Source of the DNA: Phanerodontia chrysosporium
Lineage: Eukaryota; Basidiomycota; Agaricomycetes; Polyporales; Phanerochaetaceae
Assembly: GCA_001910725.1 (NCBI GenBank)
Contig: MJGA01000035.1
Location: forward strand, 1-64,000
Length of the DNA stretch: 64,000 bases
Reading direction: 5' to 3'
In this document: positions 42,216 to 50,317 of the stretch, piece after piece
How the letters are laid out: every line of letters starts with the position of its first letter
Position numbering within the stretch: the stretch's first letter is position 1
Notes under the pieces: generated by a model
The model's database searches: none
What the model saw: only the letters and a program-made list of their open reading frames with translations
Told to the model about the DNA's origin: nothing
Position numbers and translations under genes: made by a program

Positions 42216-42220
42216 ATTAT
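42216..42220 (+). repeat. Target-site duplication ATTAT (left copy)
   Basis: Five bases immediately outside the left LTR. The identical ATTAT follows the right LTR at 50318-50322. A 5-bp duplication is usual for Ty3/gypsy integration. Confidence 0.8.
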
Positions 42221-42817
42221 CACAAAAATGCGCTGCCCTAGCGCCTATACACCAAACCAACCAGCAATACTCACTGGCAAAGGTTTACTTGGACTACAAG
42301 GGGTGTAGCCAAGCTTGAAGACGAGGTATAGAGACTAGAGAGGTGAGATGCGATGAGATTGAAGCTGGGGAGGCACCCCCAGCCCTCAGGGTTTATATAC
42401 ATGTGTACCAGGTCCCCAGGGACCGGTGTTCAGGGTCCTAGCTATCTAATACCTACTACGCTATTGGCTAGTGCCCTACAGGCATTCCTACATTCTCCTA
42501 CACGTTCCTAAATGTTCCTACGATGTCCCAGAAACCTCCAGAACGTTCTAGCACTGTCCGGACCTGTCCAGAGACCTCCAGGACTTTCTAGTCCATTCCG
42601 GAGTGTCTCGGCGCTTCCAGACCCTTGCCTGCTTCTAGACCTTCGACCATGTGACCCTGGGATACCGCACGTGTGCGCATCACGTGACCGCCGTATCACG
42701 TGACCAGCCCCGAGCCTAGGGCTGTCACTCCAGCGCTTCTGCATGTCACAGTTCGGAGTAATCGCTTCTGTCACCTGCTGCCCCTAACCCTAAGGGTTAA
42801 GACGAAAAACTGTGACA
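42221..42817 (-). repeat. 3' LTR (597 bp)
   Basis: Identical to 49721-50317 except for one base (T at 42549, C at 50049). In transcription sense it begins TGTCACAG and contains the promoter elements described for the 5' LTR. The neighbouring internal sequence GAATTGGGGGTAA, directly before TGTCACAG on the minus strand, is a plausible polypurine tract for plus-strand priming. Confidence 0.95.
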
Positions 42818-42830
42818 TTACCCCCAATTC
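42818..42830 (-). promoter_or_regulatory. Candidate polypurine tract
   Basis: On the minus strand GAATTGGGGGTAA abuts the start of the 3' LTR, the position where plus-strand DNA synthesis is primed in LTR retrotransposons. The tract is short and not purely purine, so the call is positional. Confidence 0.5.
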
Positions 42831-42852
42831 TAGCTGAACCTCCTGGTGAAGC

Positions 42853-44403
42853 CTAAATACCAGTGGAGCCAAAACCATCGCTGCTGCGAATGGTTGAGTC
42901 GAGGCGAGAAACCGGAGTTGGTTCGGCGTAGGAGATTCTTTCGAGCACAAGTTGAGCGACACGATCACCCTTGTGGAATGTAAAGGTGTCGGGCGAGTTG
43001 TTGATGAGTAGAATTTTGAGCTCCCCTCGATAATCTCGGTCAATAACGCCTGCTCCTATGTCGATGCCTCTGAGGCTGAGGCCACTCCGTGGTGCGACTC
43101 GAGCGTAGGTACCTGGTGGAGTACACATTCGAAGGCCAGTTGGCGCTAGCTTGCGATCATGGGGCTTGAGCGTAAGGTCTTCCGTGATGAAAAGATCCAA
43201 CCCTGCGCTTTCTGGCGAGCCACGTGAGGGAAGTTTTGCATCCTTGTTCATGAGCTCGACCTCGAACTGGTCGTCTGCTCCCCAAGATTGGAGTAGCGCG
43301 AGTTCGCGCACGAAAAACTCATCCTCCTCGTCGTGGTGGCGTTGCAGAAGGGAAATTGCCTTTGGCGCATCTGGGTATTTCTTGTGGAATTGTTTGACCT
43401 TCGCCATAGCGTGCTTGAGATTGGGCAAGTATTCCCATGTGTCGCTATGCTCATCGTAGCCTCTCCACCGTACTCGGTACATAACACGGCCTTTAGAGTC
43501 TGGCTGTGCATCTACGATCTGCTCGACCTCGTACTCCTCGTCATCACCCACACGAATGGGTGGTAGGGGTTTGCGCGTGCGATTGGCAACCTCATCCTCG
43601 ACGTGCTTCGTGAGCTTGCTTGCGTGGAAGACCGGGTGAATCTTCACATGGGCTGGTAACTTCAGCTTGAAGGTGACCGGTCCCAGCTGCTCTACGATCT
43701 CGTAAGGGCCTACTCGCTTTGGTGCCAGTTTCTTGGAGGGAACCCGAAGGTTCAGATCCTTTGCGTCAAGCCAAACACGGTCTCCGACCTTGAACAAGGG
43801 TTCTGATTTACCCTGGTCGTAGTACCACTTCATTCGCTCTGCAGCCAGCACGAGCGCGGCTTTCGCCTGATCTTGGGCCTCCTGTCTAAGCTTCGTCCAG
43901 TCGTCCAGTTCTGACAACCTTGTAACACGGTCCTGCTCTGGGAACATGCGTGGATGACGGCCATATTCGACGAAGAATGGCGAGTTCTTGGTGCTTTCAT
44001 GCGCCTGGTTGTTGTATGCAAACTCGGCAGAGGGCAAAAGGTACGCCCAGTCGTCCTGCCTGAAGCTTGTGTAGCAGCGCAGATACTGCTCCAATGACTG
44101 ATTAACTCGCTCAGTCTGACCGTCTGCCTGAGGGTGAAATGCTGTAGTCATTGCTGACTTGATCCCCAGGAGTCTGCACCATTCCTGGAAGAGTTTCGCG
44201 GCGAACTGCGTTCCTCTATCCGAAATGATCTGTCTGGGTAGGCCGTGCAAAGGCCAAACACGCTCATAGAGCAAATTTCCCAGATCCTTGGCTGAAAACT
44301 CCTTGGTGATGGGGAGGAAATGTGCTCGCTTGGTTAAGCGGCAAACGACTACGAAGATAGCGTTGTAACCGTCCGACTCAGGCAAGTCCGTGATCATATC
44401 GCA
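42853..44403 (-). CDS. pol, 3' part: integrase catalytic core - chromodomain - dUTPase
   Basis: Same frame as the upstream pol segment, after a TAA at 44404-44406. The DDE integrase core is present: CDMITDLP, IISDRGTQF and FHPQADGQTERVNQSLEQYL supply the D, D and E positions. Next is a GPY/F module (RVGPYEIVEQLGPVTFKLKL, KIHPVFHASKL). A chromodomain follows (EYEVEQIVDA, YRVRWRGYDEHSDTWEYLPN), expected to guide integration to marked heterochromatin. The last ~130 residues form a trimeric-type dUTPase with all five motifs: SAGLDLF, PRSGLSLRG, GAGVIDRDYRGE, GDRVAQLVLE and RSSDGFGSTG. It would hydrolyse dUTP to dUMP and limit uracil incorporation during reverse transcription. Stop at 42853. A C-terminal dUTPase on a chromovirus pol is unusual. 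The motif match is clear and no catalytic residue appears lost. Confidence 0.93.
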   Translation of the reverse strand, partial: CDMITDLPESDGYNAIFVVVCRLTKRAHFLPITKEFSAKDLGNLLYERVWPLHGLPRQIISDRGTQFAAKLFQEWCRLLGIKSAMTTAFHPQADGQTERVNQSLEQYLRCYTSFRQDDWAYLLPSAEFAYNNQAHESTKNSPFFVEYGRHPRMFPEQDRVTRLSELDDWTKLRQEAQDQAKAALVLAAERMKWYYDQGKSEPLFKVGDRVWLDAKDLNLRVPSKKLAPKRVGPYEIVEQLGPVTFKLKLPAHVKIHPVFHASKLTKHVEDEVANRTRKPLPPIRVGDDEEYEVEQIVDAQPDSKGRVMYRVRWRGYDEHSDTWEYLPNLKHAMAKVKQFHKKYPDAPKAISLLQRHHDEEDEFFVRELALLQSWGADDQFEVELMNKDAKLPSRGSPESAGLDLFITEDLTLKPHDRKLAPTGLRMCTPPGTYARVAPRSGLSLRGIDIGAGVIDRDYRGELKILLINNSPDTFTFHKGDRVAQLVLERISYAEPTPVSRLDSTIRSSDGFGSTGI

Positions 44404-46992
44404 TTAGATTATCTCCCAGGGTTCCGACGGAACCTCGTTCGGTTGTAGCAGGCCAGCAGGCTTCTGGTTGACGTTTTTATGCGACTGGCAAACTTCGCAA
44501 CCTGCGACGTACTTCTTGACATAAACTGACATTCCTGGCCACCAGTAGTTGCGCGACAGCAACTCCAACGTCTTCCATCGTCCAGGGTGTCCAGCCCCAG
44601 GGAAGTCGTGGTGTAACTTGAGTAGATCCGCCCTAATCTTGTCATCCTTGGGCACATACACCTTGCCTCGGTGCAGTAGTAGCCCGTCCTCGAGGTGCCA
44701 TTCCGCTAAGTCCTTCCCGAACTCTCTTGGTCCTTTCAACATCAGATCTTTGTACGACTTGATGACTTCGTCGTCCAGCAGGGCTTTTCTGATCCTTTCT
44801 AGCAGTTTGCTATCGTCCACTATCGATGAATGGGTTGGTTGCATGGCTCGAATCGCGAAATATTCTGGCTTCAAAAGGACTTTTTCACGATTGTCGCAAT
44901 CCACCCCCAATTCATGATCTGGCCTCCTGGACATTGGATCAGCCCGCTTCATCGTCTTTCCAGGCTTGTGCTCCAACTTGAAGTGGAAACGTGTGAGGAA
45001 AAGACTCCAACGTGCTTGGCGTCGCGTCAAGTCTTGCGCCTTGCGGAAATAGGTCAAATTCTGGTGATCTGACCATATGTCGAATGGTAGAGGGTGTCCC
45101 TCCAAGTGGTGGCGCCATTCCTTCAATGCGCGGATGATGGCTAGCATCTCCTTGTCGTATATCTCGTAGTTGCGCTCATGTACGCCTAGCGTCTTGGAGT
45201 AAAACGCGACAGGGTGCCAAAGGCCATCCTCGCCCAGTTGCTCAAGTACAGCCCCCGTAGCAAAGTCTGACGAATCGCATTCGAGCCTAAAAGGGTGCTC
45301 GTCGTCTGGAATCTTGAGAATAGGCGCAGTAGTGAACGCTCTTTTGAGTGTATCGAAGGCATCCTGCTGCTCAGGCCCCCATTCCCACTCTTTGCCTTTG
45401 CGGGTAAGCTCTGACAATGGGCGAACAATCTTGCCAAAGTCTCGAATAAACCGTCGGTAGAAGTTAGCAAAACCCAGGAAGGCCTGGACATCTTTGACCC
45501 TTTTGGGTATGGGCCAAGATAAAACGCCATCTACCTTCGATGGATCCATCTGAACTGACCCCTTGCTGATGATCATTCCGAGGTATTCAATGCTATCCGT
45601 CTCGAAGAAGCATTTTTCTGGCTTAGCGAACAGGTCATTGTCGCGTAGCCGCTGCAATACCTCGCGAACTAATCGCCGATGGTGGTCCAAGTCATTCGTG
45701 AAGATGAGAATGTCGTCTAGGTAGACCATGACATGCCCTTCTCGAATCAGATCGTCGAGAATATGGTTCATCATGCGCTGAAAGGTTGCTGGTGCATTGC
45801 TGAGGCCGAAGAACATCACTGTAGGTTCGTATAAACCGAAAGGTGTGATGAAGGCCAGCTTCCACTCGTCTCCTTCCTTGATTCTGACGTTGTTATACCC
45901 CCATCTAAGGTCAATCTTGGTGTATATACTAGCCTTAGATAGTCGATCTATAAGGTCTGAGATCTTGGGTATAGGGAAGCGGTCTTTCTTAACGACTTCG
46001 TTCAGCTTTCTGTAGTCCTGCACCAAGCGCAATGAACCGTCCTTCTTCTTCACGAAAAAGACTGGTGCTGCCAGCGGGGATTTACTTGGTCTGATGTATC
46101 CCTTGGCGAGATTCTCCTGAATCCACTCGTCCAGAGAATTCCTCTCTTCTGGCGACAGCGAGTAATTACGAGCTGGTCGAGGTAGGGTAGCTCCGTCGAT
46201 AAACTCGACAGCGTGGTCGTAAGGCTTTCGTACGGGTAACCGTTCGCTTGCACGCTTCGAAAACACGTCCCCATAGTCTTGATACTGTGCAGGGACAAGC
46301 TGCTCCCAGCCCTCGATTCCCTCCAGCGAACGAATACTGCACATCGCTGCGATCTTCCGGCAAGTTAATGCCAAAACGCGGCCATCTGGGGTGGAAGGGT
46401 CGACCCACTGGAGCCAAGGCTCCTCTTCCTCCTCCTCGAAGTCCTCATCCATAGGTTCTTCGAGCTCTGCTTGTGCTACTTGAGCCTTGTGGCTGGTAAA
46501 GCGACAAGAATCTGGGCATCTGGAGTACTTCCACTCGCCCTTATCCCAATCTATCTCGGGATTATGCTTCTTCAAGTAGCTAAAGCCGAGGAACATGTCC
46601 TTTCCACCCAGATCTGTAATGAGGCATGCTTGTCTGGAGACATGGTCCCCTACGGCTACGTCGAGCCAAGCGTACTCCTCAATACTGCCACACTTGTTCC
46701 TGGAGCCATCTGCGTTGTAAACGCGTATCTCCCTGGCCAGCTGGTTCGTCTTCAGCTTATGCTTCTTGACGAAGCGATGGCTAATGAACACAGCATAGGC
46801 CCCTGAATCAACCAGCGCGGTAGTCTGCACTCTGATTTCCTTACCCTGACTCAAAGTTACTGGAACGATAAAGCTCGATTTAGAGGGCAAACTAGAGACT
46901 TTTCTCGATTCCAAAACTGATCTAATACATTCTACTGAGTCGGGAGGGTAAAGGAAATCTAAAAACGGACCAGATGTCGCAGACTCTACATC
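44404..46992 (-). CDS. pol, 5' part: aspartic protease - reverse transcriptase - RNase H - integrase zinc finger
   Basis: The frame overlaps the end of gag in the -1 register and has no ATG before the protease, so it should be made as a Gag-Pol fusion by frameshifting. Domains in order are the protease ALVDSGAYAVFISHRF (D-S-G active site), RT blocks (LRLVQDYRKLNEVVKKDRFP, YTKIDLRWGYNNVRI, FGLSNAPATFQRMM and the catalytic VYLDDILIF), RNase H (FRLECDSSDFATGAVL) and the integrase HHCC finger (HHDFPGAGHPGRWKTLEL followed by CEVCQSHKN). The frame ends at TAA 44404-44406, immediately before the first catalytic Asp of integrase, and the same frame then continues. One point change, stop-codon readthrough or a sequencing error would each explain this. 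Without readthrough the integrase core, chromodomain and dUTPase would not be translated. Confidence 0.93.
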   Translation of the reverse strand, partial: DVESATSGPFLDFLYPPDSVECIRSVLESRKVSSLPSKSSFIVPVTLSQGKEIRVQTTALVDSGAYAVFISHRFVKKHKLKTNQLAREIRVYNADGSRNKCGSIEEYAWLDVAVGDHVSRQACLITDLGGKDMFLGFSYLKKHNPEIDWDKGEWKYSRCPDSCRFTSHKAQVAQAELEEPMDEDFEEEEEEPWLQWVDPSTPDGRVLALTCRKIAAMCSIRSLEGIEGWEQLVPAQYQDYGDVFSKRASERLPVRKPYDHAVEFIDGATLPRPARNYSLSPEERNSLDEWIQENLAKGYIRPSKSPLAAPVFFVKKKDGSLRLVQDYRKLNEVVKKDRFPIPKISDLIDRLSKASIYTKIDLRWGYNNVRIKEGDEWKLAFITPFGLYEPTVMFFGLSNAPATFQRMMNHILDDLIREGHVMVYLDDILIFTNDLDHHRRLVREVLQRLRDNDLFAKPEKCFFETDSIEYLGMIISKGSVQMDPSKVDGVLSWPIPKRVKDVQAFLGFANFYRRFIRDFGKIVRPLSELTRKGKEWEWGPEQQDAFDTLKRAFTTAPILKIPDDEHPFRLECDSSDFATGAVLEQLGEDGLWHPVAFYSKTLGVHERNYEIYDKEMLAIIRALKEWRHHLEGHPLPFDIWSDHQNLTYFRKAQDLTRRQARWSLFLTRFHFKLEHKPGKTMKRADPMSRRPDHELGVDCDNREKVLLKPEYFAIRAMQPTHSSIVDDSKLLERIRKALLDDEVIKSYKDLMLKGPREFGKDLAEWHLEDGLLLHRGKVYVPKDDKIRADLLKLHHDFPGAGHPGRWKTLELLSRNYWWPGMSVYVKKYVAGCEVCQSHKNVNQKPAGLLQPNEVPSEPWEII

Positions 46993-48566
46993 GGTCCCTG
47001 CAGAAAATCCTCATCGTCTGAGAACACCACGCGGTTAATCTTCTGCGCCTTCTCCTTTGAAGACGACTTCTTCTTTTGCTTGGTCTTGGGGGTATCTTCT
47101 TCTTCTGAGCTATCCGAGCTCGACTCCTCGTCAGAGGCTACCTCCTGGAATCTCTCCGAGTCACTGGCGTACACCTCGCGCACGCTGTTCTTCGTGTGGC
47201 GAGAGCCCTTATCCTTCTCCTTTCCCTTTGAAGGCGAAGCCTTTGACGAACTGGCCACCGGTGCATTGGTGGTTTTACTCGACGACGTCGAAGAACCTGA
47301 GTTGTTCTTCTTCGATGGACACTCCTTGGCGATGTGGCCTTTGCCTCCACACTGAGCGCAGCAGCCTTTCTTCTTCGCCTCCTCGAACGACATGGCAACC
47401 TTCTGAACTTTGGCTGTCTTGCCTTTACCCTGGGCTGAGCCCTTCTTCAAGGCGTCGACATCCATAGCGTCAGGGTCTTTCGACGACTGAGGCTGTCCAG
47501 AGAGTACGGTGCCCGTCAAGAGACGTTGATCCTGCAGAATCTCCTGAACATCCTTCAACCAACCATCCCAGGTCGTAGCCCACTGAGCACGACCACGGGC
47601 TGCCAGTACATCTGCAGCGGCACGAGGGGTATGGGCATAGGCTTTGACCAACAGTTCTTCGTTGGAGAAGCCGGTTTGGCGAGCCAGCGAACGGAATCGA
47701 GCAGCAAACTCATTGAAAGTCTTCTCGTTCGTTCCTTTCTTGCTGACAAGCTGCTCAAACTCTGCCCTTGCCCTGTCCTTCTTGTCGGTCTGTTGGAATC
47801 CTTTCTGGAGTTCGTTCACAAAGTTGGTCCAAGTACCAAGGGGCTTTGAGTCTGCCACCTTGTCGAAGTACTCTTGCATGACCTTCTTTGCTGAACCTCG
47901 CAGGTAAGTCATCGCCGTCTCTATCTTCTTTTCGTCGTCCATTACGCCACGGTGGCGCAACCAGAGTGCCATCGACTCGAGCCAGTCATCCAGCTTACTA
48001 GCCTTATCACCATTAAAGGTGTCAGGCTCCTTCATGGTAGGGAACAAAGACTGAGACAACCCAACGTTGCCTCCACTAGTGCCTTGCTGAACCAACACTT
48101 TCAAGCTCTCGTTCTCCTGCTTCAGCACCTGCATAGCGTTCTGCAAAACGCGATTTTGGTTCTGAGCCTCTGCTATCTGCGCAGACAAGTGCTGTCTAGT
48201 CTGCTCAAGAGTGTCTATCTGCTCCTGAAGTGTCTTGGCCTCAGTTTTGCGTTTGCGAAGGGCTTCCTTCAAGCGAAGGACTTCTGAACCCATTTCCGAC
48301 CTTACTTGAGCTATCTCAGCCTTTACCCAGTTACCCAGGCTGTCAACGAGGGCCTTGAAGTCGCCAGGAGTCAGTCCTTCCTGAGCGGCTTGTACCCATG
48401 ACTGGCTGTACTCTTCGTAAGAGGTCGAAAGCGGCGCAGCGGCCAAAACTGGGGTAGGGCCTCCCTCAGCCATAGAGCCGAGTTCTAACGCTCCCCAAGG
48501 GTCCATACCACTTGAACTCGCAGCAGAACGCAAACCAAAGTCAACAGGATTTGAATTGAGCGACAT
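46986..48566 (-). CDS. gag, 526 aa, with CCHC zinc knuckle
   Basis: The structural protein of the retrotransposon particle. It starts ATG at 48566 in a good context (A at -3), the first ATG of the predicted transcript. N-terminal residues to about 60 are low-complexity, residues about 80-140 form a strong coiled coil (KRKTEAKTLQEQIDTLEQTR), and the capsid-like region follows (FNGDKASKLDDWLESMALWL, AMTYLRGSAKKVMQEYF, FEQLVSKKGTNEKTFNEFAA, FRSLARQTGFSNEELLVKAY). The nucleocapsid part carries one zinc knuckle, CAQCGGKGHIAKEC (Cx2Cx4Hx4C). A Ser/Lys/Glu-rich tail ends FLQGPM at 46986, and pol overlaps this end in the -1 frame. No lesion seen. Confidence 0.93.
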   Translation of the reverse strand: MSLNSNPVDFGLRSAASSSGMDPWGALELGSMAEGGPTPVLAAAPLSTSYEEYSQSWVQAAQEGLTPGDFKALVDSLGNWVKAEIAQVRSEMGSEVLRLKEALRKRKTEAKTLQEQIDTLEQTRQHLSAQIAEAQNQNRVLQNAMQVLKQENESLKVLVQQGTSGGNVGLSQSLFPTMKEPDTFNGDKASKLDDWLESMALWLRHRGVMDDEKKIETAMTYLRGSAKKVMQEYFDKVADSKPLGTWTNFVNELQKGFQQTDKKDRARAEFEQLVSKKGTNEKTFNEFAARFRSLARQTGFSNEELLVKAYAHTPRAAADVLAARGRAQWATTWDGWLKDVQEILQDQRLLTGTVLSGQPQSSKDPDAMDVDALKKGSAQGKGKTAKVQKVAMSFEEAKKKGCCAQCGGKGHIAKECPSKKNNSGSSTSSSKTTNAPVASSSKASPSKGKEKDKGSRHTKNSVREVYASDSERFQEVASDEESSSDSSEEEDTPKTKQKKKSSSKEKAQKINRVVFSDDEDFLQGPM

Positions 48567-48595
48567 CTTGATTCAAAAACGCGCAGATACAAAAA

Positions 48596-49408
48596 CTAAT
48601 CGAGGTTCTTCTCCAAAAACAACCAATCTTCACCCAACTCCTGAATCAGCTCCCTGCAATGCTCAGCGAAGCGTGGCTTAAGCTCAGCGAAGCTATGTGC
48701 GCCTGCCTTCTTCAAATCCCTCGAAATCTTCTTCCACTCCCTCGTGGTGTACTCCTTCGTCTCGACGATGGTCTGAAGGTGTTTGCGAATGTTGTCGAAC
48801 CTCTCCTTGAACAAGCCCAAGGTGTAGAGCTCGTGTTCAGTCAACCCAACTCGAAAACGCTGCTCGTCTAGCTTCTGAAAGAACGGACCCAAGTGGTTAA
48901 GGGCGCCGTTGAACTTTCGTCCGTAGTCGCGCAGCTGATGGACCTGAGTGTTGGTGTGAAAGCGAAGGTCTTTGGGAATGGGTTTGACTTCGATAGGGGG
49001 AGTAGGGGGAGGTTCAATACGTTCGATGAGGGGTAGAGGGGGAGGGGCGTTCGCGATGCGATCGAGTAGGCGGCGCTTGCGCTGTTCGTTGCGATAGTCT
49101 TCGAGCTGAAGCTGGTGCTTGAAGTCGTTCAAGTCTGCTTCACGAGCAAGCCTTTCACGACGACCAGGGACAGGGGTGTAGGGTGTAGTGCGAGGTTTGT
49201 ACGCAGGGCGCGGCTTCCCAACGTCTTTGAAGCGGTGAAGGTTCGAGATCTTGATGCGCTCAAGCAAGGGTTTGCCAGAGCTCTCGTCCTTAGCAAGGAC
49301 AAAACGGTTCCTAGCAGCTTTAGGCACTAGTAAACACGGGTCAGCCTGTGTACACAAGCCAGAAAACTTCTCCACACAGGCAAAGCGCAAGGCTTTCCTG
49401 CCCGCCAA
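48596..49408 (-). CDS. Methionine-less leader ORF of the retrotransposon (about 269 codons), function unknown
   Basis: An open frame fills most of the leader between the 5' LTR and gag. It is bounded by TGA just upstream (49414-49412) and TAG at 48596-48598, and ends 29 nt before the gag ATG. The frame contains no ATG at all, and the track of possible starts begins with TTG at 49408. Composition looks like protein: a basic N-terminal half (KPLLERIKISNLHRFKDVGK), a charged coiled-coil-like section (FKHQLQLEDYRNEQRKRRLL), a proline-rich hinge (PPPLPLIERIEPPPTPPIEV) and a helical C-terminal third (FQKLDEQRFRVGLTEHELYT, LIQELGEDWLFLEKNLD). I recognise no family. It may be a matrix-like or regulatory protein made from a non-AUG start. 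Alternatively, it could be the remnant of a longer Gag. Confidence 0.65.
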   Translation of the reverse strand: MAGRKALRFACVEKFSGLCTQADPCLLVPKAARNRFVLAKDESSGKPLLERIKISNLHRFKDVGKPRPAYKPRTTPYTPVPGRRERLAREADLNDFKHQLQLEDYRNEQRKRRLLDRIANAPPPLPLIERIEPPPTPPIEVKPIPKDLRFHTNTQVHQLRDYGRKFNGALNHLGPFFQKLDEQRFRVGLTEHELYTLGLFKERFDNIRKHLQTIVETKEYTTREWKKISRDLKKAGAHSFAELKPRFAEHCRELIQELGEDWLFLEKNLD

Positions 49409-49704
49409 CCCTCAACGAAGAGAAAGGGGTATTACTGCGGGTTTCCACGCCACGCAGCTAAAACTGGTTGGACAGGGTATTACACCCTTAGTCCAGCACT
49501 ACAACAGGGGTTACTCGTCCGCAGGCAAAGCCCTCTGAGGTGGGTTACACCACGTTCCCCTGTCTGTACCTAAAAAGGTACTATAGTGCCCACTTACGCC
49601 TGTGGATCGGCAGAAAACTGAACAAAGCGCAAAAGCACTTGTTCAAACAAGCCCCCAGAACCCAAAGCAATAACCTAGGCCACCAAAGGTGGAGTAGGTT
49701 GGCT

Positions 49705-49715
49705 AGCTTCAATCT
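49705..49715 (-). promoter_or_regulatory. Primer-binding site, self-complementary type
   Basis: On the minus strand AGATTGAAGCT lies five bases after the 5' LTR. It is the exact reverse complement of AGCTTCAATCT, which begins at 49866 in the same LTR, 26 nt below the TATA box. That is where the mRNA should start. This is the arrangement known from Tf1 of fission yeast, where the mRNA 5' end folds back to prime reverse transcription. I saw no tRNA 3'-end complement at this position, but could not check a tRNA set. Confidence 0.72.
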
Positions 49716-49891
49716 TCTATCACAAAAATGCGCTGCCCTAGCGCCTATACACCAAACCAACCAGCAATACTCACTGGCAAAGGTTTACTTGGACTACAAG
49801 GGGTGTAGCCAAGCTTGAAGACGAGGTATAGAGACTAGAGAGGTGAGATGCGATGAGATTGAAGCTGGGGAGGCACCCCCAGCCCTCAGGG

Positions 49892-49899
49892 TTTATATA
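49892..49899 (-). promoter_or_regulatory. LTR TATA box and predicted transcription start at 49866
   Basis: TATATAAA on the minus strand. The predicted start, 26 nt downstream at 49866 (AGCTTCAATCT), agrees with the self-priming sequence, so two independent lines point to the same base. The counterpart in the 3' LTR is 42392-42399. Confidence 0.7.
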
Positions 49900-50159
49900 C
49901 ATGTGTACCAGGTCCCCAGGGACCGGTGTTCAGGGTCCTAGCTATCTAATACCTACTACGCTATTGGCTAGTGCCCTACAGGCATTCCTACATTCTCCTA
50001 CACGTTCCTAAATGTTCCTACGATGTCCCAGAAACCTCCAGAACGTTCCAGCACTGTCCGGACCTGTCCAGAGACCTCCAGGACTTTCTAGTCCATTCCG
50101 GAGTGTCTCGGCGCTTCCAGACCCTTGCCTGCTTCTAGACCTTCGACCATGTGACCCTG

Positions 50160-50205
50160 GGATACCGCACGTGTGCGCATCACGTGACCGCCGTATCACG
50201 TGACC
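50160..50205 (-). promoter_or_regulatory. Cluster of CACGTG E-boxes in the LTR (also 42660-42705)
   Basis: Three CACGTG hexamers lie within about 40 bp, two of them in the repeated phrase ATCACGTGACC. This is a binding site for bHLH factors such as the Cbf1/Pho4/SREBP families of fungi. Its position upstream of the TATA box fits an enhancer. Confidence 0.55.
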
Positions 50206-50317
50206 AGCCCCGAGCCTAGGGCTGTCACTCCAGCGCTTCTGCATGTCACAGTTCGGAGTAATCGCTTCTGTCACCTGCTGCCCCTAACCCTAAGGGTTAA
50301 GACGAAAAACTGTGACA

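Follow-up and report, generated by a model that had tools for sequence, protein, structure and literature searches.

In retroelements a single transcript must act as the genome and as several mRNAs. The product of the Cer1 gene CERV, made from a spliced mRNA, is needed for export of the unspliced RNA (PMC10309623), and BARE1, Bagy2, Ogre and CRR are plant long terminal repeat (LTR) elements with spliced transcripts (PMC3735527). In rice tungro bacilliform virus (RTBV), ribosomes scan through open reading frames (ORFs) devoid of AUG, and ORF I starts at AUU (PMC5902531). In Tf1, according to a review, the first 11 bases of the RNA complement the primer-binding site beside the LTR (PMC7175516). 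PosPlaTy3 of Postia placenta is a basidiomycete chromodomain Gypsy element, with a dUTPase at the Pol C-terminus in PosPlaTy3-4, and a figure legend by Novikova and colleagues marks a further ORF, its function unknown, in elements of fungi (PMC2864245). Here we analyse a Ty3/gypsy chromodomain element on the minus strand of a stretch of 64,000 nucleotides (nt) from Phanerodontia chrysosporium (assembly GCA_001910725.1, contig MJGA01000035.1, positions 1 to 64,000; hereafter the window). Its leader ahead of gag lacks ATG in every frame and holds an upstream gene, ORF0. We consider it likely that this leader acts as a switch operated by splicing, with ORF0 translated from the spliced RNA and the unspliced RNA serving as genome and as mRNA for Gag-Pol, the start codon of ORF0 being made by the splicing itself.

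From the predicted RNA 5′ end at 49866 to 48569 the minus strand has 0 ATG in any frame, a run of 1,298 nt leading up to the gag ATG (48566), as the preliminary description of this DNA had stated. The flanking minus-strand ATGs are at 49902 and 48566, and the gap of 1,336 nt between them is the longest ATG-free run on both strands of the window, the runner-up being 525 nt on the plus and 511 nt on the minus strand. About 20 ATGs had been expected there by chance, close to the 18.7 that base composition gives; dinucleotide shuffles of the leader (n = 2,000) have a mean of 9.0 and a minimum of 1, and zero was reached in 0/2,000. CAT, the antisense trinucleotide, shows no depletion (12 observed against 9.6 expected). 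When parts of the leader were tested separately (2,000 shuffles each), exon 1 plus the putative intron (540 nt, 0 ATG) had a shuffle mean of 4.2 and a fraction at zero of 0.008, and the ORF part (731 nt, 0 ATG) a mean of 4.1 and a fraction of 0.005; for exon 1 by itself (92 nt) this fraction is 0.615, hence uninformative. The ORF0 protein of the window copy is also without internal Met. Since synonymous permutation of the ORF with its own codons leaves 6.5% of draws without ATG (0.3% with gag/pol codon usage), out-of-frame ATG depletion in the ORF, given its protein alone, is modest.

The leader also carries candidate splice signals of fungal type. A donor, CCA|GTGAGT, is located in U5 at 49774, the sequence ahead of the ORF is CTGACCCGTGTTTACTAG|TGCC, and 49327 is a YAG acceptor with CTGAC 15 nt upstream. 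Removing 49774-49327 would join ..CCA to TGCCTAAA.. and create an ATG at the junction (ATG-CCT-AAA) out of A 49775 and TG 49326-49325, where ORF0 coding probably starts; the product would have 243 amino acids (aa), beginning MPKAARNRF... In the predicted spliced RNA this is the sole ATG ahead of gag, and the primer-binding site is taken out. Full GTRAG[TC] donor matches occur only twice in the leader (49774 and 49597), and a junction ATG arises from four of 18 donor/acceptor-like pairs, all using 49327 and one of them with a full-match donor. Homology to relatives starts at the junction residue: P0001 reads VPKA.. and P0003 ..SLVPKA.., while two Obba rivulosa proteins labelled partial start VPKA.. 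and LPVPKA... Such starts are expected if the DNA of these relatives reads ..AG|TGCC. The splice donor sits in a predicted leader hairpin (49760-49778), which could retard splicing so that RNA stays unspliced.

The preliminary description had taken the ORF to be methionine-less, to span 49408-48596, to start at a near-cognate codon and to end 29 nt before gag. The open frame (49411-48596) is real and its distance from gag is as described, but its first 28 codons fall within the putative intron. The near-cognate start is probably wrong, since the conserved splice sites would produce an ATG at the very point from which relatives are homologous, and the arrangement recurs in a second family. A spliced leader had been named as a refutation; the putative splicing removes only the 5′ part of the leader and, in doing so, makes the start codon.

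We propose the following scheme. Transcription would start at 49866. On the unspliced RNA, with no ATG ahead of gag, ribosomes would cover about 1.3 kb by scanning before they meet the gag ATG, and would yield Gag and, via a -1 frameshift, Gag-Pol; this RNA, retaining the primer-binding site, would be the genome. Removal of the 448-nt intron (49774-49327) would bring the final A of exon 1 to the initial TG of exon 2, and the junction would create the first ATG, starting ORF0, a basic and mostly helical accessory protein, on an RNA without the primer-binding site. The split start codon would conceal ORF0 from ribosomes on the genomic RNA, and selection would purge the remaining ATGs up to gag. 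The sequence itself shows the ATG gap, the conserved splice signals, the match of junction and start of homology, the selection on ORF0 and the return of the design in a second family; that splicing occurs, that ribosomes scan to gag and what ORF0 does is what we infer from it. Selection on ribosome scanning, with gag reached by leaky scanning or reinitiation, was already part of the preliminary description; the ATG-free leader fits scanning to gag. If the scheme is true, a start codon found only in spliced RNA is an economical means of keeping ribosomes on the genome from translating an upstream gene, and it would account for the 1.3-kb ATG desert.

Copies of the window family (family 1) elsewhere in the genome keep these features. 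We analysed 86 leader rows, five of which repeat the same places, leaving 81 distinct copies (the genome contains more than these): 61 with intact ORF0, 11 close copies and eight diverged copies with broken ORF0, and one broken copy in neither group. The donor CCA|GTGAGT and the AG|TG acceptor are kept in all 61 intact copies; among the 20 broken ones, one is without the acceptor region, one has AA for AG and one is without the G of TG. Among the copies read, the most diverged one (L036, 83%) has CCA|GTAAGT and CTAG|TGCC. No leader ATG is present in 59 of the 61 intact copies, and all eight diverged broken copies have 2-7. Distinct single-nucleotide variants (SNVs) in ORF0 of the intact copies comprise 54 synonymous and 38 nonsynonymous changes where 34.2 synonymous are expected (p 2e-5), giving a ratio of nonsynonymous to synonymous substitution (dN/dS, omega) of about 0.42; omega is 0.36 in the close and 0.76 in the diverged broken copies. 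This pattern argues that ORF0 is a real protein under purifying selection. A frameshift shared by a broken subfamily was considered and rejected: only L078 and L079 of the 11 close broken copies share a 10-nt deletion, L085 has a longer deletion and the remainder have small indels at varied places, several near a C-run around 49000, for which gene loss is no more likely than slippage or assembly error.

Genome searches with distant ORF0 homologues reached two further families, of which family 3 was read in five copies (L090, L092-L095) and family 2 in two (L089, L091). ORF0 of family 3 has 229 aa, is Met-less internally, and matches alignment A3 in hhalign (97%, E 9e-11). Its dN/dS is 0.07-0.14 over 10 pairs; a dN/dS below 1, which the preliminary description had proposed as a check, is seen in both families. 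All five copies have the donor CGA|GTACGT and the acceptor CAG|TGCCGAAA around a putative intron of 60-61 nt, with a further intron-like stretch of 57-60 nt upstream, and in all five the split ATG comes first in the predicted spliced RNA. Counted to gag from CTGTCCGTC, 9 nt ahead of the self-primer match, the leader measures 1,465-1,473 nt and has 2, 1, 1, 0 and 2 ATGs in the five copies, where shuffles average 7.7-10.3. The non-coding spacer ahead of gag is free of ATG in four copies and has one in the fifth, and pairs differ there by up to 27%. Genome-wide, we counted 120 family 3 acceptor sites (≤1 mismatch) and 128 donor sites (≤3 mismatches), and exact contiguous-ATG versions numbered 0. 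Each border of the putative first intron of family 3 coincides exactly with the end of a 17-nt direct repeat, TTGGTCAATACGGACAG (L090 1491-1700; L092-L095), and the donor and acceptor exons look alike because of it.

Family 2 is organised differently. In both copies ORF0 opens with an ordinary ATG behind a CACACAG acceptor, with AAG|GTAAGT as donor, and ATGs number none in exon 1, 15 in the putative intron and 23 in the whole leader to gag. Among the families read, a split start goes with few ATGs and an ordinary start with many. The usual base before a donor GT is G, as in unsplit family 2; both split families have A, which departs from this and is what an ATG needs. Three families of one genome, two split with few ATGs and one ordinary with many, offer a natural contrast that makes the idea directly testable.

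These comparisons bear on three other explanations. Chance or mutation bias would mean a low-ATG stretch with an incidental open frame, spread by recent amplification. The copies are indeed young and synonymous permutation alone can leave the ORF free of ATG; set against this are the shuffles and the normal CAT count, ORF0 homologues to about 30% identity and below, a dN/dS of ORF0 well under 1 in families 1 and 3, and the recurrence of the design in family 3, and we hold this explanation to be extremely improbable. Alternatively, ORF0 could be translated from unspliced RNA, from a near-cognate codon such as the GTG at 49327, with gag reached by leaky scanning and no splicing at all. GTG-CC does stand at the ORF0 homology start in the window family and in all five family 3 copies, at the place where the conserved splice sites would make ATG, and RTBV ORFs I and II, without internal AUGs, are scanned through (PMC5902531). 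Yet near-cognate initiation leaves unexplained the conserved donors with A before GT and the branch/acceptor signal before the GTG, which in family 3 varies by indel yet remains CAG, and ORF0 of family 2, which has an acceptor and 15 ATGs ahead of it, could be reached only through splicing or some comparable mechanism; we think it unlikely. Lastly, both RNAs might be spliced, gag too being translated from a spliced RNA (e.g. donor 49774 to the AAG before the gag ATG), with ORF0 as an intron or decoy. AATCAAG immediately precedes the gag ATG, and family 2, with its 23 ATGs, must reach gag otherwise than by plain scanning. On the other side, a donor/acceptor scan of the leader returned no CTRAY+YAG acceptor at the gag start, the ATG-free leader would be left unexplained and ORF0 is under purifying selection, all of which makes this arrangement very unlikely.

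Several observations weigh against an intron-split start codon with an ATG-free leader. A length of 448 nt is long for a fungal intron. Genomic copies with the precise spliced junction were found neither for family 1 (22-nt junction, ≤3 mismatches) nor for family 3 (21 nt, ≤2 mismatches). One leader ATG is present in each of two of the 61 intact copies, and all 11 close copies with broken ORF0 have 0. ATG-making SNVs (3/167 in intact copies, 7.2 expected, vs 21/363 in diverged broken copies, 17.3 expected; p 0.04) separate the two groups only weakly. Copies of the window family are young, mostly >98% identical and so not independent, and for this reason the copy evidence within that family is weak by itself. 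In four of the five family 3 copies predicted intron 1 itself contains an ATG, which RNA with no intron removed would retain ahead of gag. Among the proteins, Postia members have 2-5 internal Met, most other (metagenome) homologues start with M, whether from ATG or from a converted GTG, and P0042 reads ..DMPK.., with residues in line before MPK; some members of the ORF0 family seem to have a contiguous start.

The ORF0 product is basic (isoelectric point 9.9) and predicted helical, with three L-x-E/D-R-I motifs in the window copy. Its homologues in other fungi have Obba, Postia/Rhodonia, Phanerochaete and Phlebia as named hosts; viral contigs, searched with the window ORF and alignment A3, gave no confirmed relative. 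In a 38-row ORF0 tree the window clade comprises 13 rows (support 100/100), 11 of them with no internal Met and two with one, and the 25 rows outside it have 1-5, except one row with none. Pooled, 12 near homologues have a single internal Met in 2,635 residues when Obba and P0001 are excluded (3 in 3,282 with both), whereas 27 others, four fused or extended proteins being excluded, have 70 in 5,520. With families 2 and 3 added, clade support is 90/94, and family 3 is on a long branch with unsure placement. The three families also reveal a family of accessory proteins in fungal retrotransposons that is conserved and as yet has no name. By analogy with CERV of Cer1, ORF0 may be a regulator made from the spliced RNA, possibly aiding nuclear exit of the unspliced RNA, a role that we put forward tentatively. 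More doubtfully, a whole basidiomycete Ty3/gypsy lineage might use an intron-split start as a switch between genome/Gag-Pol RNA and accessory mRNA, with an ancient protein feeding back as a regulator of export or of splicing, the fungal equivalent of Rev or CERV.

The element itself (Table 1) has RT (reverse transcriptase)-RNase H ahead of integrase, a chromodomain behind integrase and LTRs, as in Ty3/gypsy chromoviruses, and RVT_1, RT_RNaseH_2, Integrase_H2C2, rve and Chromo are the Pfam domains above cut-off. As in the Tf1/sushi type, the RNA 5′ end complements 49715-49705 at 11/11 nt, 2 nt past the LTR, and the leader is predicted to fold in the self-priming arrangement (z -5.84). The transcript start at 49866, assumed in the preliminary description, is supported by both the exact, Tf1-like 11-nt complement and the predicted fold. 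The gag/pol overlap (47010-46986, about 24 nt, -1 frame) lies around GGATTTTCTGCAG, which also resembles a 3′ splice site. The dUTPase domain at the Pol C-terminus spans 42859-43242 (E 9.5e-39). The window copy has an in-frame pol stop at 44404-44406, ahead of the integrase core; three of three other copies examined are without it, so pol-intact copies exist. Two partial leader copies (G000 C64:163564-164240 and C2:733847-734519) are inverted, about 450 nt from a full copy.

Table 1. Features of the element and its leader, in window coordinates.
Feature	Position	Strand	Remarks
Whole Ty3/gypsy chromodomain element	42218..50317	minus	two LTRs, ATAAT at both outer sides
LTRs, 600 nt each	49718-50317 and 42218-42817	minus	single difference between them
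Predicted RNA 5′ end, 11 nt	49856..49866	minus	would pair with primer-binding site, Tf1-type self-priming
Exon 1, 92 nt	49775..49866	minus	ends ..TTTGCCA; last base would be A of start codon
Putative intron, 448 nt	49327..49774	minus	GTGAGT..CTGAC-N10-TAG; splice signals and conservation in copies
Primer-binding site AGATTGAAGCT	49705..49715	minus	within putative intron
CTGAC, branch-site-like	49340..49344	minus	15 nt upstream of acceptor dinucleotide region
Predicted spliced junction	49775 to 49326	minus	CCTTTGCCA joined to TGCCTAAAG
ORF0 exon 2	48596..49326	minus	TG of putative split ATG, 242 further codons and stop
Spacer, 29 nt	48567..48595	minus	ORF0 stop to gag
gag	46986..48566	minus	Retrotrans_gag; CCHC-like stretch below cut-off
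pol	42853..47010	minus	protease, RT, RNase H, integrase, chromodomain, dUTPase; overlaps gag, -1 frame

Set beside the described systems, the window element is like PosPlaTy3 in being a Ty3/gypsy element with a chromodomain and, as in PosPlaTy3-4, a dUTPase at the Pol C-terminus, and Postia proteins are among the ORF0 homologues; the available text on PosPlaTy3 does not say where the additional ORF lies or begins and mentions neither splicing nor an ATG-free leader (PMC2864245). It has the same 11-base self-primer arrangement as Tf1, for which the accessible part of the review mentions no ORF0 or split start (PMC7175516). Searches of open-licence PMC papers, subscription journals being outside their scope, turned up no LTR retrotransposon reported to have its start codon split by an intron. 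As in BARE1, Bagy2, Ogre and CRR, splicing would divide one transcript between products and genome, whereas the introns of these plant elements, as far as the source presents them, lie in or between gag, pol and env regions, with ordinary start codons (PMC3735527). Cer1, also an LTR retrotransposon, has a spliced mRNA for an accessory protein (here predicted) alongside an unspliced Gag-Pol/genomic RNA, but CERV is encoded in 5 exons, with exons common with gag, and a split start codon is not part of the account consulted (PMC10309623). With RTBV and badnaviruses the element shares an upstream ORF and a leader without internal AUG, with exceptions in family 3; they differ in host and element class, and where RTBV uses an AUU of the same RNA to start ORF I, ORF0 seemingly starts at an AUG made by splicing.

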